From Bacteroidota bacterium (GTDB taxonomy: Bacteria > Bacteroidota > Ignavibacteria > UBA10030 > UBA8401): 56,873 nt of DNA. Position numbers and translations under genes: made by a program. The notes beneath the pieces are model-generated. The model was not told the DNA's origin, did no database searches, and saw only the letters and a list, made by a program, of their open reading frames with translations. Of this stretch, positions 6,575 to 21,293 are shown piece by piece. Each line of letters opens with the position of its first letter. Position 1 is the stretch's first letter. The stretch covers positions 1 through 56,873 of the forward strand of contig WBUG01000015.1 of assembly GCA_008933835.1 (NCBI GenBank), in the 5' to 3' direction.

Positions 6575-8456
6575 CGGACGCTCCGCTGCGCACCGACTCC
6601 AGATCGTGCCACCGGGCGTAGAGCCGTTCCACCTCCGTCCGGCAACGTTCCATCTCGTGTGTTAGCTCCTCGGTACGCGCGCCGTGCAGCGCATAGAAGT
6701 CGGGCGAGGCGAACAGCGTTTCGAGCCGCAGCACCTCCTCCTCCGCGCGCATGATGGCCTCTTCCATCCCTTCCAGTTCCTTCGCTTCCTTGTAGCTCAG
6801 CTTCCGGACCGCCGCCTTCGGCTCCTTCGGCGCCGCCGTCTCCAGCGCAGCGGGGAGCGCCGCCGCCCGGCGCGCCTCGCGCTTCTCTTTATAGTAATCG
6901 TAGTGCCCTTCGCTGAAGTGCACCGTACCGTCCTCCTCGAACGCGAGGATGCCGTTGCAGACACGGTTCAGGAAGTACCGGTCGTGGCTCACGGCGATGA
7001 CGCACCCGTCGAACGCCTCCAGCGCCTCCTCGAGCACCCGGAGCGTGGGAAGGTCCAGGTCGTTCGTCGGTTCGTCGAGCACGAGCAGATTGCCGCCGCG
7101 CCGCAGCACCTTCGCCAGCAGCAGTCGGCTCCGTTCGCCGCCGGAGAGGGAGCCGACCTTCGTCATGATGCGGTCGTCCGTGAAGAGGAACCGCCGCAGG
7201 TAGGACCAGACCGTCAGCCGCTGCTCGCCGAACATCACCCAGTCGTTCCCTTCGCCGATCTCGCGCAGCACCGTGTTCCCGTCATCGAGGGAGAGGCGCG
7301 ACTGGTCCACGGAATTGATCACCGTCCGCTCGCCGATCTCCACCGAACCGGCCGCCGGCGTCAGCTCGCCGAGGATGACGCGCAGCAGCGTCGTCTTCCC
7401 GCTCCCGTTGCGTCCCACGATGCCGAGCTTGCGGTGTTTCGTGAAGAGCAGGTCCACGCCGCGGAAGAGGGGCCGGCCGTCCATGTCCATCCCCAGGTTC
7501 CGCAGATTGAGGATGGTGGAACCGAGTCCGGGCGGGGGAGGGATGACGAGCTCCACTTCCCGTTCCGGCACGAAACCTTCCGCATCGGCAACATCGAAGT
7601 ACCGTTTGAGCCGGCTCTTCGACTTGGTCGTACGCGCGCGGGGACCCCGGCGCACCCACTCCAGCTCCCGGCGCAGGAAGTTGTTCCTCTTCTTCTCCTC
7701 GCTCTCCAGCTGCGCCTGCCGTTCCGCCTTGTCGATCATGAAATCGGTGTAGTTCCCCTCGTGCGGATGGCAGACCCCCTCCGCCAGTTCGATGATGCGG
7801 TTCGCGATGGAGTCGAGGAAGTAGCGGTCGTGCGTCACGAACAGGCAGGCACCCTGGTAGGAGGCGAGGTACTCTTCGAGCCATTCGATGGAGCCGGTGT
7901 CGAGATGGTTTGTCGGCTCGTCCAGGATGAGCAGGTCCGGCCGCGCGACGACCGCCCGGCAGAGGGCGACGCGCCGCTTCTCGCCGCCGGAGAGGGTGTC
8001 GATGGAACGTCCCGGCGCCGGTGCGTTGAGGGAGGTCATCACCGCATCGACGCGGTTCCGAAGGTTCCATCCGTCGATCTGGCGCAGATGCTCCTCCACC
8101 GTGTGGCGGCGTTCCGCGTCGAAGGGGAGATGTTCGTACTCCTCCAGCAGTTCCAGCACACCGCGTGCCCCCTCCAGCACGTTCTCGTACACCGTCTTCG
8201 ACGTGTCCAGCGTGAACTCCTGCGAAAGGTACCCCGTCACCAGCTCACGGCGCCGTTCGACGGTCCCCGAGTCCGGCGACATCAGTCCGGCGATGACCTT
8301 GATGAGCGTGGACTTGCCGGAGCCGTTGGCGCCGACGAGGCCGATCCGGTCGGTCTGATGGATGCTCAGGGTCGCGGAACGGAGCACCACCTGCTCGCCG
8401 AATCGTACGGCGAGGTCGCGGGCGGCGATGAGGAGGGGGGAGACCGGTTTGGACAT
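6567..8456 (-). CDS. ABC-F family ATPase (Uup-like)
   Basis: 629 residues with two ABC ATPase domains in tandem and no membrane segment. The first has Walker A GANGSGKST and signature LSGGEKRRVALCRA; the second has GRNGSGKTT and LSGGERSRLLLAKV. Each signature is followed by a LILDEPTNHLD or LVLDEPTNDLD Walker B. The interdomain linker is rich in Arg and Lys (RRELEWVRRGPRARTTKSKSR), and the C-terminus (about 555-629) is a charged coiled coil as in Uup, which binds DNA or ribosomes. ABC-F proteins act on translating ribosomes or replication intermediates rather than in transport. It is transcribed alone toward the phosphatase gene. Confidence 0.9.
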   Translation of the reverse strand: MSKPVSPLLIAARDLAVRFGEQVVLRSATLSIHQTDRIGLVGANGSGKSTLIKVIAGLMSPDSGTVERRRELVTGYLSQEFTLDTSKTVYENVLEGARGVLELLEEYEHLPFDAERRHTVEEHLRQIDGWNLRNRVDAVMTSLNAPAPGRSIDTLSGGEKRRVALCRAVVARPDLLILDEPTNHLDTGSIEWLEEYLASYQGACLFVTHDRYFLDSIANRIIELAEGVCHPHEGNYTDFMIDKAERQAQLESEEKKRNNFLRRELEWVRRGPRARTTKSKSRLKRYFDVADAEGFVPEREVELVIPPPPGLGSTILNLRNLGMDMDGRPLFRGVDLLFTKHRKLGIVGRNGSGKTTLLRVILGELTPAAGSVEIGERTVINSVDQSRLSLDDGNTVLREIGEGNDWVMFGEQRLTVWSYLRRFLFTDDRIMTKVGSLSGGERSRLLLAKVLRRGGNLLVLDEPTNDLDLPTLRVLEEALEAFDGCVIAVSHDRYFLNRVCNGILAFEEDGTVHFSEGHYDYYKEKREARRAAALPAALETAAPKEPKAAVRKLSYKEAKELEGMEEAIMRAEEEVLRLETLFASPDFYALHGARTEELTHEMERCRTEVERLYARWHDLESVRSGASAT

Positions 8457-8566
8457 GCGGAGCGGACCTTCTTTCGGACAGTATACGAAAATCTTTTCTG
8501 ACCTCTGAGTGAAATTCGCGGAGCGATTGAGTACATTCCTCCATTCACCACACCTCAGGAGTGCCC

Positions 8567-10380: not shown

Positions 10381-11214
10381 TCAGGCTTCCAGGAACATCT
10401 GTCCGAGCACGCCGTCCCAGTCCGCTTTCGGAAAGTGACGGTGGAAATCAGGCACCAGCTCGCCGCCGTCCGCCAGGGTCGCGCCGACCCCCGCCGTCGC
10501 GAACGACACCTGCAGCCGTTCCATCTCCCGCATGATCCACGGCCGCACTTCGGCTCCGCGGAGCAGATGCTCCGTTCCGTTCCCGTTCTCCGCCGGACGA
10601 ACCTTCAGTGTCCAGGCATCCTCCGCTCCGCCGTGCGCCGTCACCTCGCCGTCCACCGGCGAGAGGATGCGCAGCGCTGCCTTGTGCGTCCGCACCTTCC
10701 ATCCCGTTCCGTTCACGGTCACCCGGCTTCCCACGGGAGGCAGTTCCTTCGCATCGGCGGTGCCGATGATGCGCTTGCCGAAATCGTCCAGACCGACCAG
10801 GTAATTCCCTTCATTGTCCGGCGCCACCCACGTGTGTCCGCGGTGGTACATCCGGTCCGCCGGCATCGCGAATCCGAGCACGTCCTCCTGCAGCGTCAGG
10901 GGAGAGACGCCCCGGCCTTCCAGCGGCGGGAAGGTGCGGTGGAGCGGACACGTGCGGCAGTCGAACGCGTGGTCGCACTGGCGGTGCGCCACGTCGCCGG
11001 TGAACTGATGCCGGCAGGAACGGGCCGCGGGGGCCAGGTCTTCGAAGTCCGAATGCCAGAGGATGGCCTCGGCCGCGCCGGTCGCATGGGCCTTCGCCGT
11101 GCGGCGGAGCGCCGTCGTCAGCGTGGCGGCCACCACCATGAAGACGGTGAAGAAGACCGAGAGGAAGATGATGTGGAAGGGTGTCCAGTGGAACTCGTAG
11201 ACCCAGGGCAGCAT
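10381..11214 (-). CDS. Membrane-anchored GcvH-like lipoyl-domain protein, lipoyl lysine present
   Basis: 277 residues, last gene of the Qrc-like operon. An N-terminal membrane helix (about 14-36) is followed by a Cys-rich segment, Cys67, Cys80, Cys86 and Cys89 with several His, and then a GcvH fold: HTWVAPDNEGNYLVGLDDFG at 127-146 and HKAALRILSPVDGEV at 177-191. Lys178 lies eight residues before the Pro of SPVDG, where glycine-cleavage H protein carries lipoate, so the protein is probably lipoylated. The tail holds GATLADGG (244-251), a motif shared with two other proteins of the operon. No gcvT, gcvP or lipoamide dehydrogenase gene is nearby, so a role in glycine cleavage is unlikely; a thiol redox carrier docked to the complex is my inference. 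Confidence 0.85.
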   Translation of the reverse strand: MLPWVYEFHWTPFHIIFLSVFFTVFMVVAATLTTALRRTAKAHATGAAEAILWHSDFEDLAPAARSCRHQFTGDVAHRQCDHAFDCRTCPLHRTFPPLEGRGVSPLTLQEDVLGFAMPADRMYHRGHTWVAPDNEGNYLVGLDDFGKRIIGTADAKELPPVGSRVTVNGTGWKVRTHKAALRILSPVDGEVTAHGGAEDAWTLKVRPAENGNGTEHLLRGAEVRPWIMREMERLQVSFATAGVGATLADGGELVPDFHRHFPKADWDGVLGQMFLEA

Positions 11215-11230
11215 GACGTTCTCCGTTCAG

Positions 11231-12556
11231 TTACAGTTTTGAGGATGCGAAACGATCGATGAGGGCCGTGACGAACGACGGACGGCGGGGGAACGACGGC
11301 GCGGGGGCCTCCGCGGCGTCCGCGCGCGCCATGGAGAGCTCCTTCTCCTGCGGGAAGACCGTGGCGTACCGGTACGTGACCGAGTACAGGATCATGCCGT
11401 AGGCGATGACGAAGAGGAACGCGGCCACCTCCTCCCAGCTCGGGAGGTACGTGAGGAACGCATCGAACGGCAGCGTGGGCAGCGCGAGCGTCTGGATGGT
11501 CATCACGAACCGGTTCAGCAGCACGCCGCAGCAGACCAGCGCGCCGGCGGTGAAGAGCACGCGGCGGTTCCGGCGCATCCGATCGCTGAGCAGCACCAGG
11601 GCGGGGAGCAGTCCGAAGAGCACGATCTCCGTGAAGAGGATCCAGGTCCCGAAGGAACGCGTGGCGTAGAACTCGAACGCCGGGAAGCCGCTCCCGGGGG
11701 AGGTGCTGTTGATCCAGATGAGCGTGTCGACCGTCTTCAGCAGCACGTACGCGATGAGCATGATGCCGCTCACCCGGCCGAGGAACCGGTACACGTCGTC
11801 GCGGACCAGCCGTTTGCGCGTCACCGCCTCCGCCAGGCGCGTGGTGAGCATGATGAAGCTCGGACCCGCCGCCGCCGCGGAGATGACGAACAGGAAGAAG
11901 GTGGAGGGCCAGATGCCGAGCTCTTCGCGGAAGGCGAACGGCCGGCCGCGCAGCACGCCGAACAATCCGCCCAGCGAGCCCTGATGGAAGAACGACAGCA
12001 GCGTGCCGATCCCCGCGAACACCGGCATCAGTTTGTGCAGCTGGAACTCGAACACGAGGAACTTCGGGATCTGCCGCAGCTGCCGGTTCTTGAGCACGAT
12101 GGGGATGTACTCGATGAGCAGCACGATGAGGTAGCAGGTCAGGCAGAACGTCACTTCGGTCAGCATCGAATGCGTGTTGGGATGCCAGAAGGTGAACCAG
12201 GCGCGCAGCGGCTGCCCGACGTCCACCATCAGCACCAGCACCGCGCCGGAGTAGCAGATGAGGCCGATGATGACGGCGCTGTTGATGACCGCCTTCAGCT
12301 CCGTACGGCGGAGGATGTACAGCAGGAATCCGGTGAAGAACGCGCCGGCGCCGAGGGCGATCACCGTCAGGTCAAGGAAGATCCAGATGCCGAACGCGAA
12401 CCGGTTGTCCATGTTCGTGTGGTAGAGACCTTCGATGAGACAGAGGTAGATGGCGTAGAGACCAACGAGCAGCAGGGCGCTCCACGGCAGCAGCCAGAGC
12501 AGGAAGCGGCCGAAGGTGGTGCGCTGGACACCGCGGGGGATGAGCAGACTATCCAT
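11231..12556 (-). CDS. NrfD/QrcD-like quinone-interacting membrane subunit
   Basis: 441 residues with about ten hydrophobic helices. The start of the core, FGIWIFLDLTVIALGAGAFFTGFL, is typical of NrfD/PsrC/HybB membrane proteins, which exchange electrons and protons with the menaquinone pool without haem. Charged residues that may line a proton path sit inside helices (for example Asp in FLDLTVIALGAG and Glu in LTEVTFCLTCYLIVLLIEY). The ATG at 12556 overlaps the end of the iron-sulfur gene by 8 bases; the longer open frame to 12832 is a shadow. It would anchor the periplasmic FeS and MopB subunits, as QrcD or ActC does. Confidence 0.9.
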   Translation of the reverse strand: MDSLLIPRGVQRTTFGRFLLWLLPWSALLLVGLYAIYLCLIEGLYHTNMDNRFAFGIWIFLDLTVIALGAGAFFTGFLLYILRRTELKAVINSAVIIGLICYSGAVLVLMVDVGQPLRAWFTFWHPNTHSMLTEVTFCLTCYLIVLLIEYIPIVLKNRQLRQIPKFLVFEFQLHKLMPVFAGIGTLLSFFHQGSLGGLFGVLRGRPFAFREELGIWPSTFFLFVISAAAAGPSFIMLTTRLAEAVTRKRLVRDDVYRFLGRVSGIMLIAYVLLKTVDTLIWINSTSPGSGFPAFEFYATRSFGTWILFTEIVLFGLLPALVLLSDRMRRNRRVLFTAGALVCCGVLLNRFVMTIQTLALPTLPFDAFLTYLPSWEEVAAFLFVIAYGMILYSVTYRYATVFPQEKELSMARADAAEAPAPSFPRRPSFVTALIDRFASSKL

Positions 12557-13322
12557 GGAATTCCTCCTGCCGGGTCCTGGTGAGCGAGCGTTCCGCCAGG
12601 GCGCGCACCCAGGGTTTCGTGGTGTGGTAGTAGACCTTCGGTTCCGTGCCGAGCCGCGCCAGGAACCGGAACGCGCCGTCGCTCTTGGAGAGACGGCACA
12701 CGTCGCTCTCCTCGTCGTTGAGGTCGCCGAACGTGATGGCGTTGGTCGGACACGAAGCGACGCAGGCGGGGACGTAGTCCGCCGGATCGATCTCGTTCCG
12801 TCCGGCCGCGGCCGCCTTCTCCCGGGCCGCATGGAGCCGGCCGTGACAGAAGTTGCACTTCTCCACCACGCCGCGCATCCGCGGGGCGACGGCGGGGTTC
12901 AGCTGTGCCTTCATTCCGTCGGTCCATTCGGGGTCGCGCCAGTTGAACGTGCGCGCGTGGTACGGGCAGGCCGTCATGCAGTAGCGGCAGCCGAGACAGC
13001 GCTGCGGCACCTGGCCGACGATGCCGGTCACAGGGTCCACGTCCACCGCGTTCTGCGGACAGACCGTCATGCACGGCGTCTCGTTCTCGCACTGCTGGCA
13101 GAACATCGGGATGTAGGCCGTATCGCCCGCGGGGAACTGTTCATGGTTCGACACGGCGGAGACGTTCATCAGACTCACCGCGTTCCGTGTGTTCGCCTGC
13201 TGATGGGCCGGGGGGACGTTGTTCTCGACCGCGCAGGCGACCGCGCAGGCGCCGCAGCCGTTGCAACGGTCGAGGTCGATGACCATTCCGTATCGTTGCC
13301 GTTTGGGTGTCGTTGTTTCCAT
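12549..13322 (-). CDS. Four-cluster iron-sulfur subunit (QrcC/DmsB/PsrB-like)
   Basis: 257 residues with four ferredoxin-like Cys groups: CNGCGACAVAC near 20-30, CQQCENETPC with MTVCP near 75-90, CLGCRYCMTACP near 110-120, and CNFC near 155 with CVASCP near 190. This is the pattern of the electron-wire subunit of the DMSO-reductase superfamily. There is no signal of its own; partner export with the Tat-dependent MopB subunit is expected from the family. The start lies 3 bases after the MopB stop, and the end overlaps NrfD, so the core is translationally coupled. Confidence 0.9.
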   Translation of the reverse strand: METTTPKRQRYGMVIDLDRCNGCGACAVACAVENNVPPAHQQANTRNAVSLMNVSAVSNHEQFPAGDTAYIPMFCQQCENETPCMTVCPQNAVDVDPVTGIVGQVPQRCLGCRYCMTACPYHARTFNWRDPEWTDGMKAQLNPAVAPRMRGVVEKCNFCHGRLHAAREKAAAAGRNEIDPADYVPACVASCPTNAITFGDLNDEESDVCRLSKSDGAFRFLARLGTEPKVYYHTTKPWVRALAERSLTRTRQEEFHG

Positions 13323-13325
13323 GGA

Positions 13326-15422
13326 TCACGCTTTCTGAATGAAGGCCGGGGTGATTCTCCAGGTTCCGTCCGCCGCCACGGCGCACAGGTCGAGCATCGT
13401 GCGGCCGGAGGGATGACGCGGCGTCTCGGCGCCGTTGGGAAGGGGACCGATGACCGCCTCGATGGTGTCCGGACGGACACCCGCGTCGGTGCGAACCCGC
13501 ACCGTCATCGTGCCGCGGTCGGTGGAGACCGTCGCGGCATCGCCCGCGTTCAGTCCGAAGGAGGACGCAGTGAGGGGATTCAGCAGGACGGTGCCGGCAT
13601 TGTGCCGGAGTTCCGATTCCTGGAACACTTTGCTGAGCACCGGGGAGATCTGCGAGGCGGAGACCGTACCGCGCCAGCCGTTCGCGATCATTGCGAGACC
13701 CTGCATCGTCGGCGCCGCCGCGTCGGTCCCGGTCAGACCGAGGGTGAAGCGGGGCATCGCGCCGGTGCGTTCCGGTTCGTCCGTCCATCGCGCGCCGCCG
13801 GTGAAGAGGGTCCAGAGCTCTTCCGCTGAACCGATCTCCGCGACGGCAGTGACGGAACCGTCCGGTGTGCGGACACTTCCGCGCTTCGAAGCGTGTACGG
13901 CTTCCGCCGTTCGCTTCGCCGCGTCTTCCGATGACGGAAATTCCGGCGCGATGCCGAGTTCCGCCGCCAGAAGCCGGAGCACGTCGGAGGGTTCGGCGGT
14001 GTGTTCGTTCTTCGGAAGCAGAGGCATCGAGACCGCGAACGAGGCGGCGGGAGCGCCCGGTCCGTTCGGTATCCCGGCCGCCGCTTCGTACGGGGCCGGA
14101 GCGGGTATGAGGACGTCGGCATGCGCCGATACGGTGTTGAGCACCGGAGAGAAGGAGACGACGAGAGCGTCCTTCTGAAGCTTCCGCTCGATGAGCTCCC
14201 ACGGAACGGCGTATCCGGAATCGGCGCCGTCCACGAACAGCACGCCGATGGAACGGTCCGGCGCTTCGGCCAGCGTCATCGCAGGAGCGTGTGCGGGGAT
14301 TCCCGGCACGGTGGTGCGGCGGACGATGCCGCCGCGGCGGCCGACCGCCCCGATGAGCACGTTGATGGCGGCGACGGCCTTCTGCGTCTCCGCATCGAAC
14401 GGCCCGCCGCCGGCGTCGGCTCCGCTCAGTACCACCGCTCCGTCGGAGGCGGCCAGCCGTACGGCGAGATCGCGCACGACAGGTGCGGCGATGCCGGTGA
14501 CCGGTGCGGCCGCTTCCGGCGTCAGCGGACGGGTGGTGCGGAGGGCGTCGTTCAGGTCCGCCACGTTCCGTTTCACTGCGGCGGTGACGAGCCCTTCGTG
14601 CAGCAGCACGTTGAGCACGCTCAGAGCGAGCAGACGTTCCGTTCCGGGACGCACCGGGAGCCATTCGTGCGCCTGAGCGGCCGTACGGGAACGGCGGCAG
14701 TCGACCTGCACGAAGCGCGCTGCGCCGTTCAGGCGGAGGGACTGCATCACGGAAGGGACGCCCCATCCGTCGAGCAGCGGTGCGCCGAACGAGACGATGA
14801 GCGTGCTGTTCTCAAGGTCGAAACCATAATTGTGTGACGGGACGGACGACATCGCGCGCAAACGGGCGACGGTCTCCTCTTCGCGGGAGGAAGGGACGAG
14901 GTAGAGTCCGTCCGCCGCGGCGAGGAACGTGCGGTACTGTTCCGACACCGGCCGGCCGGGCTGATGGTCCAGCACCGCGGTGCTGCCGATGCGGAGGGCG
15001 AGACGCTTCGAGATGACGGCGGCCGCTTCGTTCAGCGGCACGGCGGTCATCGTGCTCATATCGTCGCGTCCGGAGAAGAGATGCGGATGGACGATACGGA
15101 GCGGATGATGGGCGAGGTGATGCCCCGCCAGTCCGGGAGCGCACAGCCCGCCGTCGATGCCGGCAAGACGGTACGGTGTTCCGCCGACGCAGTCCGCTTG
15201 CACCGCACAGCCGGCCTGGCAGAGGGTGCAGCGGGAGACGAGGGAGGAGAGCGGTCCGTGGGAGAGCTTCGGGGTGAGGGACCAGTTCTGCGTCCAGATG
15301 GCGGAATCGTCCAGCAGTTTCCACGGAAGCGGCGAGAGCATCACGCCCAGTAACGTTCCGCCGGAGTACTTCAGGATGTCGCGTCGTGTGAGCTTCGAAG
15401 GCATAACGGTCTTTCGGTTCAT
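13326..15422 (-). CDS. Tat-exported molybdopterin-oxidoreductase-like subunit (QrcB-like)
   Basis: 698 residues. The N-terminus has a Tat signal (LTRRDILKYSGGTLLGVML). A [4Fe-4S] site is formed by Cys65, Cys68, Cys72 and Cys94 (SRCTLCQAGC then GGLCAPG). Later motifs fit the MopB fold: INVLIGAVGRRGGIV in the Rossmann part and FGLNAGDAATVSTDRG in the C-terminal barrel. I see no convincing Mo ligand (the usual Cys, Ser or Asp loop reads LLDGWGVPS), and the gene order matches qrcABCD, in which QrcB lacks molybdenum. Whether it binds a pterin or acts only as a scaffold is open. The start overlaps the cytochrome stop (ATGA). Confidence 0.85.
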   Translation of the reverse strand: MNRKTVMPSKLTRRDILKYSGGTLLGVMLSPLPWKLLDDSAIWTQNWSLTPKLSHGPLSSLVSRCTLCQAGCAVQADCVGGTPYRLAGIDGGLCAPGLAGHHLAHHPLRIVHPHLFSGRDDMSTMTAVPLNEAAAVISKRLALRIGSTAVLDHQPGRPVSEQYRTFLAAADGLYLVPSSREEETVARLRAMSSVPSHNYGFDLENSTLIVSFGAPLLDGWGVPSVMQSLRLNGAARFVQVDCRRSRTAAQAHEWLPVRPGTERLLALSVLNVLLHEGLVTAAVKRNVADLNDALRTTRPLTPEAAAPVTGIAAPVVRDLAVRLAASDGAVVLSGADAGGGPFDAETQKAVAAINVLIGAVGRRGGIVRRTTVPGIPAHAPAMTLAEAPDRSIGVLFVDGADSGYAVPWELIERKLQKDALVVSFSPVLNTVSAHADVLIPAPAPYEAAAGIPNGPGAPAASFAVSMPLLPKNEHTAEPSDVLRLLAAELGIAPEFPSSEDAAKRTAEAVHASKRGSVRTPDGSVTAVAEIGSAEELWTLFTGGARWTDEPERTGAMPRFTLGLTGTDAAAPTMQGLAMIANGWRGTVSASQISPVLSKVFQESELRHNAGTVLLNPLTASSFGLNAGDAATVSTDRGTMTVRVRTDAGVRPDTIEAVIGPLPNGAETPRHPSGRTMLDLCAVAADGTWRITPAFIQKA

Positions 15423-16000
15423 TTATGGCAGGCCACGCAGCCGTCGCGGCGGCCGCGGTCGTCGTGACAGCGGACGCACCGGTCCATCTTCATCCCTTCC
15501 CAGGGATTGGAGGCGAAGCCGGAGATGTTCGGGCCCCAGATGTCGCGGCTGTAGCCGGAGATGCGGTTCACCTGGTACGCACGGAGCGTGTCGCTGCTGC
15601 CGTGCGGTCCGTGACAATCGGCGCATTCCATCGCGCCGAGGGTCACATGGGCGTTGTGCGGGAAGTGGGCGTTGTCCGGCTGGCGTGCGTACACTTTCCA
15701 TTCGATCTCCCGGTTCGGCGTCACGTACTGCTCGACGAGCTGCAGCTCGGACGCCGATTCGCCGATGGGGGCGGAGTGGCACTCCGCGCACTTGGCGACG
15801 GCGGGGATCCCCTGGAAGCGTCCCTGTTCGTCCACGGCATGACAGTCCGCGCACGCCATCCCCGCCTTCTCTCCGGCATGGGTGGCGTGACTGAAGTGCA
15901 ACGGCTGCGGCTCGGTGGAGTAGAGCGCCAGGGGGAAGACGAACCAGCCCAGGGCGAGGCCCGAGACGATACCGGCGGTGAGGACGATGGCGGATCTCAT
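15419..16000 (-). CDS. Membrane-anchored pentahaem cytochrome c (QrcA/ActA-like)
   Basis: 193 residues. An uncleaved signal-anchor (IVLTAGIVSGLALGWFVFPLAL) is followed by five CxxCH haem sites: Cys50-His54, Cys71-His75, Cys126-His130, Cys175-His179 and Cys188-His192. Extra His residues (FSHATHAGEK, HFPHNAHV) are candidate sixth ligands for bis-His haems. It would be the periplasmic electron donor or acceptor of the complex. The ATG at 16000 overlaps the GcvH-like stop (ATGA); the longer open frame reaching 16759 is a shadow of that gene. Confidence 0.9.
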   Translation of the reverse strand: MRSAIVLTAGIVSGLALGWFVFPLALYSTEPQPLHFSHATHAGEKAGMACADCHAVDEQGRFQGIPAVAKCAECHSAPIGESASELQLVEQYVTPNREIEWKVYARQPDNAHFPHNAHVTLGAMECADCHGPHGSSDTLRAYQVNRISGYSRDIWGPNISGFASNPWEGMKMDRCVRCHDDRGRRDGCVACHK

Positions 16001-16932
16001 ACGTGTGCGTTCCAGACGGCTTGCAGTGAAAAGAATTCGTTGTAGAGGGAGAGCAGTTCGTCCTTGCCGAGGTGGCGGACGAGACCGGTTTGGAACGACC
16101 CGCCGTCGGCCATGAGCACGGCCCCCTTCATGTCCGGGCGCGCGGCGACGCGGTGCGCGAGGGACGTCATGCGCTCCTTCTCGCGCTGCATCCACACGAG
16201 CGCGTCGGCGCCGTTCATCAGTCCGTCGCTGCCGGCGTTCCGCGGAAGGGAACGGTCCGGCGTCGCTTCGAACAGCCAGCCGAGCGTGTACGGGTCTGAC
16301 GTGATCTTCTCCGGATGCGTGCGCAGGTAGGTGTTCGCCCGCTTGATGTTCATCCGGAGCGGGAAGATGAACTGCATCTCGACGCCGTTGACGGAGAACG
16401 AGACCGCCGGACGATGGAACCCTTTGGTGGTGACGAACGTGACGTGGTCGATGGTGCCGAGCGCTTTGGTGAGGAACGCGTCCACACCGATGTGGCAGGT
16501 GCCGTCGCTCCCTTCCTCCATCCACATGTGGTTCTGCGCGTAGAGGAGGTGGGCGGGCACTTTCACGTCGTCCTCCGTCAGGACGCCGGTCCCTTCGGCG
16601 ACGGCGGTCCCTTCGGGCTGGGCCAGTCCGAGGAACAGCTCGCAGTACCGGTGACTGTCCGTACCGCACTGCGACAGGACCGATTCGCTGTAGGGGATGT
16701 ACTTCGTGACGGCGGCGGCCGTGCAGTACTGCACGAGCGATTCGTGGAGGAACGGACAATGGTCCGCGCTCGGGTGCTCTTCCAGGTGCTGCTTCGCCGC
16801 CGGGCAGTTCACGTACTCGGAGGAGGAGCAGCGTTCCGCCGCGGGCTGTTCGGCCAGCCGGACGATGAGCTTCCGGTAGGCCGATGCCCGGCAGAACTTC
16901 ACCTGTGCTTCACGTAAGAATGGACAACGCAT
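15997..16932 (-). CDS. Cys-rich GcvH-like protein lacking the lipoyl lysine
   Basis: 311 residues. The N-terminal 100 residues contain two copies of a Cys unit: Cys3, Cys14, Cys35, Cys43 and Cys59, Cys70, Cys89, Cys97, each opening with CPFL(R/H)E. A GcvH-like fold follows (HMWMEEGSDGTCHIGVDAFL at 135-154 and DPYTLGWLFEA at 213-223). At the lipoyl position the sequence reads VNGVEMQFIFP, with no Lys, so it cannot be lipoylated in the usual way. The tail carries GAVLMADGG. No membrane segment or signal is visible, so it is probably cytoplasmic. It may be a docking partner or cluster-binding subunit for the lysine-bearing paralogue at the end of the operon; that role is inferred. Confidence 0.8.
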   Translation of the reverse strand: MRCPFLREAQVKFCRASAYRKLIVRLAEQPAAERCSSSEYVNCPAAKQHLEEHPSADHCPFLHESLVQYCTAAAVTKYIPYSESVLSQCGTDSHRYCELFLGLAQPEGTAVAEGTGVLTEDDVKVPAHLLYAQNHMWMEEGSDGTCHIGVDAFLTKALGTIDHVTFVTTKGFHRPAVSFSVNGVEMQFIFPLRMNIKRANTYLRTHPEKITSDPYTLGWLFEATPDRSLPRNAGSDGLMNGADALVWMQREKERMTSLAHRVAARPDMKGAVLMADGGSFQTGLVRHLGKDELLSLYNEFFSLQAVWNAHV

Positions 16933-16958
16933 GGCGCATCGCTCCCTTCGGCGTGACG

Positions 16959-17237
16959 TCAGTTCTCTGACCGTTGAATGTGCTTCTCGTCGTTCTTCGT
17001 TTCCGTCTCGTTCTTGTCGAGACGCTTGCCGCCGTCCGCCATCGTCACGCCGAGTTCGCCGAGCAGGAACGAATGGTCATCCTGCAGTTGCGGCACGCGC
17101 ACTTTCGCGCGGGCGTCCGCGAAGAACTCCTTCGCCACCACCACACCCACCGCGACGAAACAAATGACGGTCACGATACCGAGTCCGGCGTTCGTGATGG
17201 TCAGCCATACGGTTTCGGAATTCATGGATTCAAACAT
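16959..17237 (-). CDS. Small single-pass membrane protein, first gene of the Qrc-like operon
   Basis: 92 residues: one membrane helix (about 12-36, LTITNAGLGIVTVICFVAVGVVV), then a cytoplasmic-type charged tail with LGVTMADGG at 62-70 and a Lys/Glu/Asn-rich end. The ADGG motif recurs in both GcvH-like proteins of the operon, which ties this gene functionally to them. ATG 17237 is chosen because AAAGGAG lies eight bases upstream. It is 53 bases after the predicted sigma-54 start site. I do not recognise a named family. Confidence 0.75.
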   Translation of the reverse strand: MFESMNSETVWLTITNAGLGIVTVICFVAVGVVVAKEFFADARAKVRVPQLQDDHSFLLGELGVTMADGGKRLDKNETETKNDEKHIQRSEN

Positions 17238-17300
17238 GGTCGTACTCCTTTCGTGATGTTCGGTGCTTACCGATTCGGGCATCGGTTCAACCACACAAAT

Positions 17301-17316
17301 GGCAAAGAGCGTGCCT
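17301..17316 (-). promoter_or_regulatory. Sigma-54 promoter of the Qrc-like operon
   Basis: Minus-strand sequence AGGCACGCTCTTTGCC matches the -24/-12 consensus TGGCACG-N4-TTGCA at all core positions (GG at -24, GC at -12, ten bases apart). Predicted start near 17290, about 53 bases before the first ATG. Confidence 0.85.
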
Positions 17317-17656
17317 GTTTTTCGAACACACCTGTAACATGTTGATATTATTGATGATGCGGAGATAGTGAAGTCGGACTTTCCGTCTCACAGTTCTTCC
17401 GTTATGCGGGAAATCCCCTCATGGCGTGTGGGGAATATCAACACAACCGATTTCCTGAAGAAAAGCAGGGAGATGCAATGATGGTGGGTCTTTTCGCCAT
17501 CCTGATATCTATTATATCCTTCGAGCGGGAAATGACCGTTGAATATTTCAATACCAACGCATCGTGCTCTTGAAAAAATTAATAGAGACATGATTATCCG
17601 ATTGCGAAAGGAATGGAATCAGGGCTGTTTCTCGATGACGAACTCTTCCGGATTTG
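17317..17656. promoter_or_regulatory. AT-rich regulatory region with candidate activator-binding dyads
   Basis: This 340-base stretch between two divergent sigma-54 promoters holds no credible gene and is clearly more AT-rich than its surroundings. It contains related dyads: GTTGATATT (17341-17349) mirrored by GAATATCAAC (17433-17442), GATAT-N5-ATATC (17504-17518), and TTGAA-N3-TTCAA (17539-17551). These sit 100-250 bases from the two promoters, the range used by NtrC-type activators. Short frames at 17388-17591 and 17539-17745 lack ribosome sites and are not called. Confidence 0.5.
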
Positions 17657-17672
17657 TGGCACGGATGATGCA
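17657..17672 (+). promoter_or_regulatory. Sigma-54 promoter of the histidine kinase operon
   Basis: TGGCACGGATGATGCA matches TGGCACG-N4-TTGCA with one change (ATGCA for TTGCA); GG and GC are ten bases apart. Predicted start near 17683, about 20 bases before the kinase ATG. This implies autoregulation by the NtrC-type protein encoded in the same operon. Confidence 0.8.
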
Positions 17673-17704
17673 CAATTCAACAGCGAACAAACACCGGGAA
17701 CTCC

Positions 17705-19366
17705 ATGACCCTGAAGCAGCGCGCACTCCGGCTTCCGCCGCATAAGATCTCGCAGAAGCTCATCCTTTCCTTTACCGTCATCATGCTGGTGGTCACCGTC
17801 ATCTCGAGCTATGTGCACGTGAAGACGCAGGAACAGCAGCTGCTCGACGCGATGATGCTCGGCGCGGACCAGCTCTCCGGAAGCATCTCGAGCGCCACCT
17901 GGCACGCGATGCTGGCGGACCAGCGCGACGCCGCGTACCAGACGATGGAGACCATCGCGCAGAAGCAGGGGATCACCCGCATCCGCATCTTCAACAAGGA
18001 GGGGCGCATCATGTACTCTACGATGCGCAGCGATACGGGGGTGGTGGACAAAGCGGCCGAGGCGTGTTTCATGTGCCACGCCGCGGAACAGCCGGTGGTG
18101 AAGGTCGACGTGCCGACACGCGCGCGCGTCTATCACACCGCCGAGGGTCTTCGGACCCTCTCTATGATCACTCCCATCTATAACGAACCCTCCTGCACCG
18201 TGGCGGAATGCCACGCCCATCCCGAATCGCAGAGCGTGCTCGGCGTGCTCGACGTGTCCATGAGCCTGGACATGGTCGACGCCGAGATGGCGCAGCTGCA
18301 GGTGCGGGTCATCATCATCTCGCTGTCTGTGATGGCGGTCGTGAGCCTCTTCACGATGGTCTTCACGAAGTACATCATCGACCGTCCCATCCGGCAGCTC
18401 ATCGCCGGCACGCATGCGGTGAGCGAGATGCAGTTGGACCGTCCCATCGTCATCGAATCGAGCGAGGAGCTCGGTGAACTGGCCCATTCGTTCGACGTGA
18501 TGCGCATCCGGCTGAAGGAAGCGCTGGACGAGATCAACGAGTTCACCGAAGGACTGGAACGGAAAGTGCGCGAACGGACCGACCAGCTCAAGGTCGCTCA
18601 TCAGAAGCTCCTCCACAGCGACCGGCTCGCCTCCCTCGGCCAGCTCTCCGCGAGCGTCGCGCACGAGATCAACAATCCCGTCTCGGGCGTCCTCAACCTC
18701 GCCATGCTGATGCAGCGCATCATGAAGGAGGACGGCGTCCCGAAGGAGCGCGTCGAGGAGTTCCGGAAGTACCTTGCACAGGTGGTGCACGAGACCTCCC
18801 GCGTCGGACGCATCGTGCAGGACCTGCTCGCCTTTTCACGCCGCTCAAAGCCGTCGCGCGCCAAGATCGACTTCAACGCCGTCATCCGTACCACGGTCAG
18901 TCTTCTGGACCATAAACTGAAGCTCTCCGGAGTACGGATGGAGCTCCTTCTGGGAGAGCACCTCCCGCCGGTCCACTGCGACTCGTCACAGATGCAGCAG
19001 GTGGTCATCAACCTGGTGATGAACGCCGCCGAAGCGGCGCAGGGGAAGCCCGACGGCGCCGTCACCGTCACCACGCGTACCGGTGAGCATGACCGTCAGG
19101 TCCTCTTCATCGTAGCGGACAACGGGGACGGCATCACGGAGGAGAACCTACAGCGCATCTTCAGTCCCTTTTTCACGACCAAAGGAGAGGGGAAAGGGGT
19201 GGGGCTGGGTCTCGCCGTGGTCTTCGGCATCGTCGAAGCGCACAAGGGGGACATCGACGTGAAGAGCGAGCTCGGCGTCGGCACCGTCTTCACCGTGACG
19301 CTGCCGGCGGACGAAGCGGTGCCGGACGGACCGGACGATATCGAAGCGGGGACAGCGGCAGCGTGA
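17705..19366 (+). CDS. Membrane histidine kinase with periplasmic haem-binding sensor domain
   Basis: 553 residues: TM1 (about 18-37), a periplasmic region (38-200), TM2 (about 201-222), HAMP, then a HisKA/HATPase core with phospho-acceptor His320 in SVAHEINNP, N box NLVMNAAEAA, DNGDGI, FFTTK and GVGLGLAV. The periplasmic domain carries a canonical haem site CFMCH (121-125) and a second, wider site Cys164-x4-Cys169-His170, so it probably binds one or two c-type haems and senses a redox state or a gaseous ligand. It is encoded with its likely partner, the NtrC-type regulator, and divergently from a cytochrome-containing respiratory operon. The stop overlaps the next start (GTGA). Confidence 0.9.
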   Translation: MTLKQRALRLPPHKISQKLILSFTVIMLVVTVISSYVHVKTQEQQLLDAMMLGADQLSGSISSATWHAMLADQRDAAYQTMETIAQKQGITRIRIFNKEGRIMYSTMRSDTGVVDKAAEACFMCHAAEQPVVKVDVPTRARVYHTAEGLRTLSMITPIYNEPSCTVAECHAHPESQSVLGVLDVSMSLDMVDAEMAQLQVRVIIISLSVMAVVSLFTMVFTKYIIDRPIRQLIAGTHAVSEMQLDRPIVIESSEELGELAHSFDVMRIRLKEALDEINEFTEGLERKVRERTDQLKVAHQKLLHSDRLASLGQLSASVAHEINNPVSGVLNLAMLMQRIMKEDGVPKERVEEFRKYLAQVVHETSRVGRIVQDLLAFSRRSKPSRAKIDFNAVIRTTVSLLDHKLKLSGVRMELLLGEHLPPVHCDSSQMQQVVINLVMNAAEAAQGKPDGAVTVTTRTGEHDRQVLFIVADNGDGITEENLQRIFSPFFTTKGEGKGVGLGLAVVFGIVEAHKGDIDVKSELGVGTVFTVTLPADEAVPDGPDDIEAGTAAA

Positions 19367-19926
19367 AGTCGATCGTGCTCATACCGTTCGGCCCGGTCCC
19401 GCCGGAGGTGCTGGACGCGCTCGAGGTGGGATTATGGCAGGAGTTCGGGTTCGGTGTGCGGCGGGGGGAGGCGCTTCCCGACCCGGCGTACGCGTTCGAC
19501 CAGCATGCGAACCAGTACAGCTCCGCGATGATGCTCAAGGACCTGCTCCGGCGAGTTCCGTCCGACGCGGTCCGGGTGCTGGGCGTGACCGAGCGGGACC
19601 TCTTCATTCCGATGCTCAGCTTCGTCTTCGGTCACGCGCAGGTGAACGGCCCGGCCGCGGTCATCTCCCTGGCCCGGTTGCGGCAGGAGTTCTACCGGCT
19701 CCCGCCGAATCCGCCCCTCTTCCTCCGCCGCGTGATGAAGGAGGCGGTGCACGAGCTCGGCCACACGTTCGGACTGGTGCACTGCGCGGACACGCGCTGC
19801 GCGATGTCCCTCTCCAACGCCATTCAGCATGTCGATACAAAAACGGAAGAGCTGTGCCCGTCCTGCACCATCCTCTTCCAGGATTCCGTCCATCAAATCC
19901 GCCAGCACTCTGGCGAGGAGCATTGA
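19363..19926 (+). CDS. Archaemetzincin-like zinc metalloprotease
   Basis: 187 residues. The zinc motif HELGHTFGLVH (His130, His134, His140; catalytic Glu131) is followed at once by Cys141 and Cys146, then Met148 for the Met-turn and a CPSC pair at 165-168, the four-Cys arrangement that defines archaemetzincins. No signal peptide is seen, so it is probably cytoplasmic. Bacterial archaemetzincins have no known substrates. Here it is wedged between a histidine kinase and its regulator with a GTGA overlap upstream and a 2-base gap downstream, so it should be made in step with them. A role in processing a component of the respiratory complex or the signalling proteins is inference. Confidence 0.85.
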   Translation: MKSIVLIPFGPVPPEVLDALEVGLWQEFGFGVRRGEALPDPAYAFDQHANQYSSAMMLKDLLRRVPSDAVRVLGVTERDLFIPMLSFVFGHAQVNGPAAVISLARLRQEFYRLPPNPPLFLRRVMKEAVHELGHTFGLVHCADTRCAMSLSNAIQHVDTKTEELCPSCTILFQDSVHQIRQHSGEEH

Positions 19927-19928
19927 CA

Positions 19929-21293
19929 ATGAAGAAGATGTGGAACATCATGGTCGTCGACGACGAGGAAGTGATGCGCGAATCGCTCGCGGCCTGGCTG
20001 CGGGAGGACGGTTACACCGTCGACACCGCCGAATCGGGGAAGGAGGCCATCGAGAAGGCCCGCGCGCGGGAGTACGCCATCTGTTTCGTCGACCTGAAGA
20101 TGCCCGGCGGGTACGACGGCATCGAGACGATGATGGAGATCCGCCTCCTCCGTCCCGAGGCCTCCATCATCATCGTCACGGCGTACGCCACGGTCGACAC
20201 GGCCATCACCGCGATGAAGGAGGGTGCGCAGGAGTACATCGTGAAGCCGTGCAATCCCGAAGAGATCTCGCTGCTGGTCAGCCGCATCATCAAGATCAAG
20301 AACCTGCAGCGCGAGAACTCCATCCTGCGCAAGAAGCTGAGCAAGCAGTACAGCTTCTGCGACATCATCAGCAAGAACCCGAAGATGGGCGAGATCTTCA
20401 CCCTCGTGCGCGAAGTGTCGAGCCTGCGCAGCACGGTGCTCATCCAGGGGGAGAGCGGCACGGGGAAGGAGATGATCGCCCGCGCCATCCATTTCAGCGG
20501 TGACCGGGCCGCCCGTCCCTTCATCGGCGTCTCCTGCGCCGCCCTCACGGAGTCGCTCCTCGAGTCGGAACTGTTCGGTCACGAGAAGGGCTCCTTCACC
20601 GGTGCCGTCGGACAGAAGAAGGGGAAGTTCGAACTGGCGGAGGGAGGGACCATCTTCCTCGACGAGATCGGCGACATCTCGCCGAAACTGCAGATGAACC
20701 TGCTGCGCGTGCTGCAGGAACGGAACTTCTACCGCGTGGGGGGGACCGAACAGATCTCCGTGGACGTCCGCGTCATCGCCGCCACCAACCGGGACCTCGA
20801 AAAGGCGGTGCGCGACGGGGCGTTCCGCGACGACCTGTTCTACCGTCTCAACGTCATCAACATCCACCTTCCGTCGCTGCGCGATCGGAAGGAGGACATC
20901 CCGCTGCTCGTCCGCGCCTTCATCGAACAGCTCGGTCCGGAGCTCGGCCGGGAGGTGTCGGACATCTCGGAAGGGGCGCTGAAGGTGCTGCTGAACCATC
21001 AGTGGCCGGGGAACGTCCGCGAGCTGGAGAACGCCGTCGAACGGGCCATCGTCACCTGTAAGACCAAAGTGCTCGCCGAAGAGGACTTCACCTTCATCGG
21101 CACCGCTCATCCCACGGAGAAGCAGGAGTGGTGCGTACCGGAGGACCTGACCCTCGACGACCTGACGAACCGTGCCATCACCGCCACGCTCCAGCGGACG
21201 CACGGCAACATCAAGGAGGCGGCCGCCATCCTCGGAGTGGACCGCTCGACACTGTACGACCGCATCAAGAAATACAATCTTCCGCGGAACTGA
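19929..21293 (+). CDS. NtrC-family sigma-54-dependent response regulator
   Basis: 454 residues: receiver domain (1-120, phospho-acceptor Asp55 in FVDLKMPG), AAA+ sigma-54 activation domain (Walker A GESGTGKE at 174-181, sigma-54 contact loop GSFTGA at 221-226, Walker B LDEIGD at 244-249, arginine region FRDDLFYRLNV), and a Fis-type helix-turn-helix (GNIKEAAAILGVDRSTLYDRIKKY). The contact loop has Ser where GAFTGA has Ala. GAGGAG lies upstream of ATG 19929; the open frame back to 19434 is a shadow of the protease gene. Its obvious targets are the two sigma-54 promoters in the divergent intergenic region. Confidence 0.92.
   Translation: MKKMWNIMVVDDEEVMRESLAAWLREDGYTVDTAESGKEAIEKARAREYAICFVDLKMPGGYDGIETMMEIRLLRPEASIIIVTAYATVDTAITAMKEGAQEYIVKPCNPEEISLLVSRIIKIKNLQRENSILRKKLSKQYSFCDIISKNPKMGEIFTLVREVSSLRSTVLIQGESGTGKEMIARAIHFSGDRAARPFIGVSCAALTESLLESELFGHEKGSFTGAVGQKKGKFELAEGGTIFLDEIGDISPKLQMNLLRVLQERNFYRVGGTEQISVDVRVIAATNRDLEKAVRDGAFRDDLFYRLNVINIHLPSLRDRKEDIPLLVRAFIEQLGPELGREVSDISEGALKVLLNHQWPGNVRELENAVERAIVTCKTKVLAEEDFTFIGTAHPTEKQEWCVPEDLTLDDLTNRAITATLQRTHGNIKEAAAILGVDRSTLYDRIKKYNLPRN

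Follow-up and report, generated by a model that had tools for sequence, protein, structure and literature searches.

Sigma-54-dependent promoters carry the hallmark GG-N10-GC at -24/-12. NtrC-type sigma-54 activators are recognized by a receiver, an AAA+ domain with a GAFTGA-like loop and a helix-turn-helix (HTH), and their enhancers by dyads located roughly 80-200 bp upstream, often in pairs separated by about two turns of the helix. In DVU3142/ohcBAC of Desulfovibrio vulgaris Hildenborough, the gene for a sigma-54 activator is transcribed divergently from a neighboring electron-transport operon, which is itself equipped with a sigma-54 promoter and with activator sites (PMC4641369). The menaquinone reductase QrcABCD has been described in sulfate reducers (PMC8076601, PMC13059093), and a 2021 survey found QrcD in Deltaproteobacteria only (PMC8076601). 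In the acidobacterial MAG CO124, qrcABCD is reported to be transcribed under anoxic conditions (PMC10564751).

We analyzed a stretch of 56,873 nucleotides (hereafter the window) from a 3.57-Mb assembly; its named relatives are Ignavibacteria/Bacteroidota metagenome-assembled genomes. The locus resembles DVU3142/ohcBAC in that a sigma-54 activator is encoded divergently beside an electron-transport operon with a putative sigma-54 promoter and candidate activator sites. However, DVU3142/ohcBAC pairs the Ohc complex with a single neighboring regulator gene. In our locus, the operon opposite the Qrc-like genes encodes three proteins, namely a kinase carrying c-haem motifs, an archaemetzincin and a response regulator, and a predicted sigma-54 element points in each direction. 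Judged from sequence, the intergenic region very probably controls transcription in both directions through sigma-54 and contains its own enhancer, switching both the qrc-like operon and the regulator operon. We found no description of a module combining a Qrc-like complex, a two-component system and an archaemetzincin in the open-access literature. The promoter architecture is classical; the surprise lies in the pairing of sensor and target, which seems to be undescribed.

Gene content of the two operons

The intergenic region extends from 17238 to 17704, and the operons diverge from either side. The leftward operon comprises seven genes on the minus strand, beginning with a 92-amino acid small protein (16959..17237) that has one hydrophobic segment, is kept across loci and gave no family match. 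It is followed by gcvH1 (15997..16932; 311 amino acids), in which a cysteine-rich N-terminus precedes the GcvH domain. Approximately nine cysteines of this N-terminal region are invariant (C3, C14, C35, C43, C59, C70, C89, C97 and others), and they may be ligands of a metal cluster. The next four genes encode a QrcA-like multihaem cytochrome c with five CXXCH motifs (15419..16000, start approximate; NF041781, 207 bits, cut-off 180), a QrcB-like subunit of the molybdopterin-oxidoreductase family (13326..15422; NF041783, 262 bits, below the cut-off of 440), a QrcC-like iron-sulfur subunit (12549..13322; NF041782, 332 bits, below the cut-off of 400) and the NrfD-type membrane subunit QrcD (11231..12556; NF041784, 573.8 bits, cut-off 570). 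The operon ends with gcvH2 (10381..11214), which encodes a membrane segment and a GcvH domain. QrcA and QrcD thus pass the curated NCBIfam cut-offs; QrcB and QrcC fall short of them, yet the Qrc models are their top matches, and for this reason we call the complex Qrc-like.

The subunit set and its order (multihaem cytochrome, molybdopterin-family subunit, FeS subunit, NrfD-type membrane subunit) are identical to those of QrcABCD. The differences are the two flanking GcvH-domain proteins and the small conserved protein, the five CXXCH motifs of QrcA against the six haems listed for QrcA (PMC8076601), and the genome itself, in which we found no dsrA match. The Qrc-like complex (10381-17237) occurs outside the sulfate reducers in which Qrc is described, and therefore probably supports a form of respiration different from sulfate reduction. 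By analogy, it would transfer electrons between periplasmic cytochrome c and menaquinone.

The rightward operon, on the plus strand, encodes a histidine kinase, an archaemetzincin and a response regulator. The kinase (17705..19366) has a predicted extracytoplasmic sensor with the motifs CFMCH and CX4CH, which matches Mcp40H-20_sensor, followed by HAMP, HisKA and HATPase domains. The archaemetzincin (peptidase M54; 19363..19926; NF033823, 157 bits, cut-off 145) is encoded between the kinase and the regulator at every compared locus where the regulator operon was complete. A previous reading of this DNA from its letters (the sequence-only reading) had recognized an NtrC-type activator in one of the operons, and the regulator gene (19929..21293) bears this out: it encodes a receiver (PF00072), an AAA+ sigma-54 interaction domain (PF00158) and a Fis-type HTH (PF02954), complete with the GESGTGKE and GSFTGA motifs. 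The protein scored below the cut-offs of all named NCBIfam regulators listed. It shares with NtrC, ZraR and AtoC the receiver, the AAA+ domain, the Fis-type HTH, the GSFTGA motif and paired upstream dyads on one helix face, but the system differs from them in the CXXCH and CX4CH motifs of the kinase sensor and in the archaemetzincin gene between kinase and regulator. The genome contains a single rpoN locus (E 4.8e-57) and approximately 13 strong sigma-54 activators.

Two putative sigma-54 promoters

The two GG-N10-GC elements proposed by the sequence-only reading, one on each strand, are both present. The element of the qrc-like operon, AGGCACGCTCTTTGCC, lies at 17301..17316 on the minus strand with a predicted start at approximately 17290, and that of the kinase/regulator operon, TGGCACGGATGATGCA, at 17657..17672 on the plus strand with a predicted start at approximately 17683. 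Compared with TGGCACG-N4-TTGCW, the left element has two mismatches and the right element one. The distance of 32 bases from the right element to the ATG (17705) was given correctly, whereas the 53 bases given for the left element should be 63, counted from the end of the element to the likely ATG, whose A is at 17237 with AGGAG just before it.

The elements could be chance matches to a loose consensus, and counted over the window only, such matches are no commoner than in shuffles: TGGCACG-N4-TTGCW with ≤2 mismatches was observed 5 times against 7.1 expected, which is not beyond chance. We rejected this explanation and consider it extremely improbable, since position, strand and sequence are conserved from locus to locus and between phyla, as judged against negative controls. 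The significance of the elements accordingly comes from this cross-locus conservation and not from the window-only count, which could not reject chance.

We aligned homologous intergenic regions from relatives of the same family (11 sequences) and ranked every 17-bp window by column information. The top five windows were, in order, the right promoter (17656-17672; 1.49 bits, the highest of the intergenic region), the dyads UAS1 (peak at 17401-17417) and UAS2 (17427-17443), the left promoter (17299-17315) and the dyad UAS3 (17537-17553). All windows outside these five had ≤0.96 bits, with a mean of 0.69. The comparison with relatives that had been proposed as a check thus places both elements among the five most conserved windows. 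In the left element, GGCAY and the G at -13 are kept in 11/11 family sequences; the C at -12 is found in only 4/11, the others having GT, GA or GG. All 11 sequences have TGGCAY-N5-RTGC as the right element.

We extended the qrc-side analysis to 33 homologous loci from Ignavibacteria, Acidobacteria and Eisenbacteria. A sigma-54 site with ≤2 mismatches was found 25-115 nt upstream in 16 of the 33, compared with 0 on the opposite strand, 0 for the reversed pattern and 0.23 expected from Markov shuffles. Several acidobacterial loci had a weak or absent match, and the CO124 locus, which is among those we found, had a weak one. On the kinase side, the site was found in 11/11 divergent loci at ≤3 mismatches and in 8/11 at ≤2, compared with 1 and 0, respectively, in each control. 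Both putative -24/-12 elements are therefore conserved far beyond chance.

Most family sequences share a further conserved element, TGTAAC-NNN-TTR (17333-17345 in the window), in the stretch that separates the tandem dyads from the left sigma-54 element; a second factor may bind there.

Tandem dyads as a candidate enhancer

Between the promoters lie three roughly palindromic 17-bp dyads with the consensus TGTNGRAAWWTYCNACA, which were absent from the sequence-only reading and were delimited by conservation. UAS1, TGCGGGAAATCCCCTCA, a candidate regulator site at 17405..17421, and UAS2, TGTGGGGAATATCAACA, at 17427..17443, are exactly 22 bp apart and form a pair approximately 100 bp upstream of the respiratory promoter. 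UAS3, CGTTGAATATTTCAATA, at 17537..17553, is close to the kinase promoter. The dyad centers are at -123 (UAS1) and -145 (UAS2) relative to the predicted qrc start (17290), and at -138 (UAS3) relative to the predicted kinase start (17683). The layout is thus nearly symmetric: going upstream from either predicted start, a dyad is centered at approximately 123-145 bp and further dyads follow at approximately 250-270 bp.

The spacing of UAS1 and UAS2 is 22 bp in 10 of the 11 family sequences and 21 bp in the remaining one. Tandem dyads 20-22 bp apart were found at all 11 family loci and at 12 of the 22 loci outside the motif derivation, there at 120-240 nt upstream and always with a spacing of 20-22 bp (23/33 loci overall). 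Shuffles and a control region contained none. We then searched 22 family genomes for the tandem pattern with ≤3 mismatches. Nine of them matched, once each, and eight of these matches fell at the qrc/kinase locus; the ninth (G016) was 255 bp upstream of the kinase on a short contig of a fragmented assembly. A search of the genome for further targets with a single dyad returned three weak places. The tandem dyads fit what is typical of a sigma-54 enhancer, and from synteny and co-occurrence we infer that the adjoining regulator binds them.

Regulator and target across genomes

We scored the co-occurrence of kinase-sensor orthologues (≥50% identity) and gcvH1 orthologues in the 22 family genomes. 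Both were present in 12 genomes and neither in 7, and the 3 discordant genomes were 71-89% complete. In many other lineages, the kinase/archaemetzincin/regulator genes adjoin qrc in a convergent arrangement; there, the qrc promoter often retains the sigma-54 site and tandem dyads, while good sigma-54 sites and dyads are mostly missing from the kinase promoter. These results suggest that sigma-54 control of qrc is widespread and that autoregulation of the two-component genes through sigma-54 is tied to the divergent arrangement. In one genome (G007), the kinase is on a different contig and the qrc promoter retains the dyads and the sigma-54 element, as expected for control in trans. The combination of promoter and tandem dyads also precedes orthologous operons of other Ignavibacteria, of Acidobacteria and of Eisenbacteria, including cases in which the regulator genes are elsewhere.

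The scarcity of good kinase-side sites in convergent loci would also be expected if only the qrc promoter were a genuinely regulator-dependent sigma-54 promoter, with the kinase-side element weak or secondary and the regulator operon transcribed mainly from a sigma-70-type promoter. The -12 region of the kinase-side element in the window is ATGC rather than the TTGC of the consensus, and on the plus strand, positions 17570-17597 weakly resemble a sigma-70 promoter (TTGAAA-16-GATTAT). We nevertheless regard this explanation as unlikely, given that the kinase-side element is the top conserved window of the intergenic region and occurs in every divergent locus.

The reading of sigma-54 control in both directions is thus the one we prefer, and the interpretation of the sequence-only reading is supported by these comparisons with one restriction. 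Its claim that sigma-54 drives both operons appears to hold across phyla for the respiratory operon; for the regulator operon it appears to hold in the divergent clade, elements being weak or absent elsewhere. Its claim that the promoter pair ties the respiratory complex to the two-component system gains from the dyads, the single rpoN and the co-occurrence of kinase and qrc.

In the mechanism we propose, the signal is probably a redox or gas cue tied to the respiratory chain, detected by the histidine kinase, whose predicted extracytoplasmic sensor bears c-haem motifs. As the pairing of the two in one operon suggests, the kinase would phosphorylate the NtrC-type regulator. The phosphorylated regulator would bind the tandem UAS1/UAS2 and the single UAS3, and DNA looping would let it activate sigma-54 RNA polymerase at both promoters. 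The predicted output of the left promoter is the seven-gene Qrc-like complex, including the two GcvH-domain proteins; that of the right promoter is more kinase, archaemetzincin and regulator, which would amount to positive autoregulation.

A separate locus (G002:C5:103000-109000, L079) contains two complete kinase/archaemetzincin/regulator sets next to each other, one qrc-type and one paralogous.

A paralogous module in the same genome

A second operon of the genome, on contig C82 (L080, G000:C82, 3492-10900), has the order GcvH-FeS-NrfD-GcvH-kinase-regulator-archaemetzincin, its kinase, regulator and archaemetzincin being 37%, 44% and 39% identical to those of the qrc locus. It is preceded by a perfect sigma-54 site, TGGCACGCCGCTTGCT, at 10653-10638 on the minus strand, and by the dyads TGTAGATATTCCCAACA and TATATAATTTCTCAACA at 10887-10871 and 10865-10849, 22 bp apart. 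The recurrence of dyads with the same spacing supports the dyads as the operator used by this family of regulators.

The same recurrence leaves room for a different activator: the sigma-54 promoters may be real while the dyads of the qrc locus are bound by another of the approximately 13 strong activators encoded in the genome, for example the paralogous C82 regulator, whose operon has similar dyads. This is quite improbable in our view: the adjoining kinase and regulator occur together with qrc, and where the dyads occur the HTH of this regulator is nearly invariant, whereas paralogue kinases turn up in genomes lacking qrc as well. The similar dyads also raise the possibility of cross-talk between the C82 and qrc modules.

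We see an even case for an undescribed module, present in Ignavibacteria, Acidobacteria and Eisenbacteria, whose c-haem-motif kinase and sigma-54 activator, encoded together with an archaemetzincin, would act specifically on NrfD-type quinone-reactive complexes with GcvH-domain proteins; because two paralogous modules of one genome have a similar tandem operator, respiratory branches may be cross-regulated. For a Qrc-like complex in bacteria known mainly from metagenomes, the locus offers a regulator, an operator and a promoter that can be tested. A haem-motif sensor over the qrc-like operon points to expression that responds to a redox or gas signal, and this predicted control helps to place the GcvH-domain proteins and the archaemetzincin.

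Elsewhere in the genome, on contig C47 (G000:C47, L081), two perfect sigma-54 sites face outward, at 8355-8370 on the minus strand and 8521-8536 on the plus strand, 150 bp apart and close to another sigma-54 activator gene.
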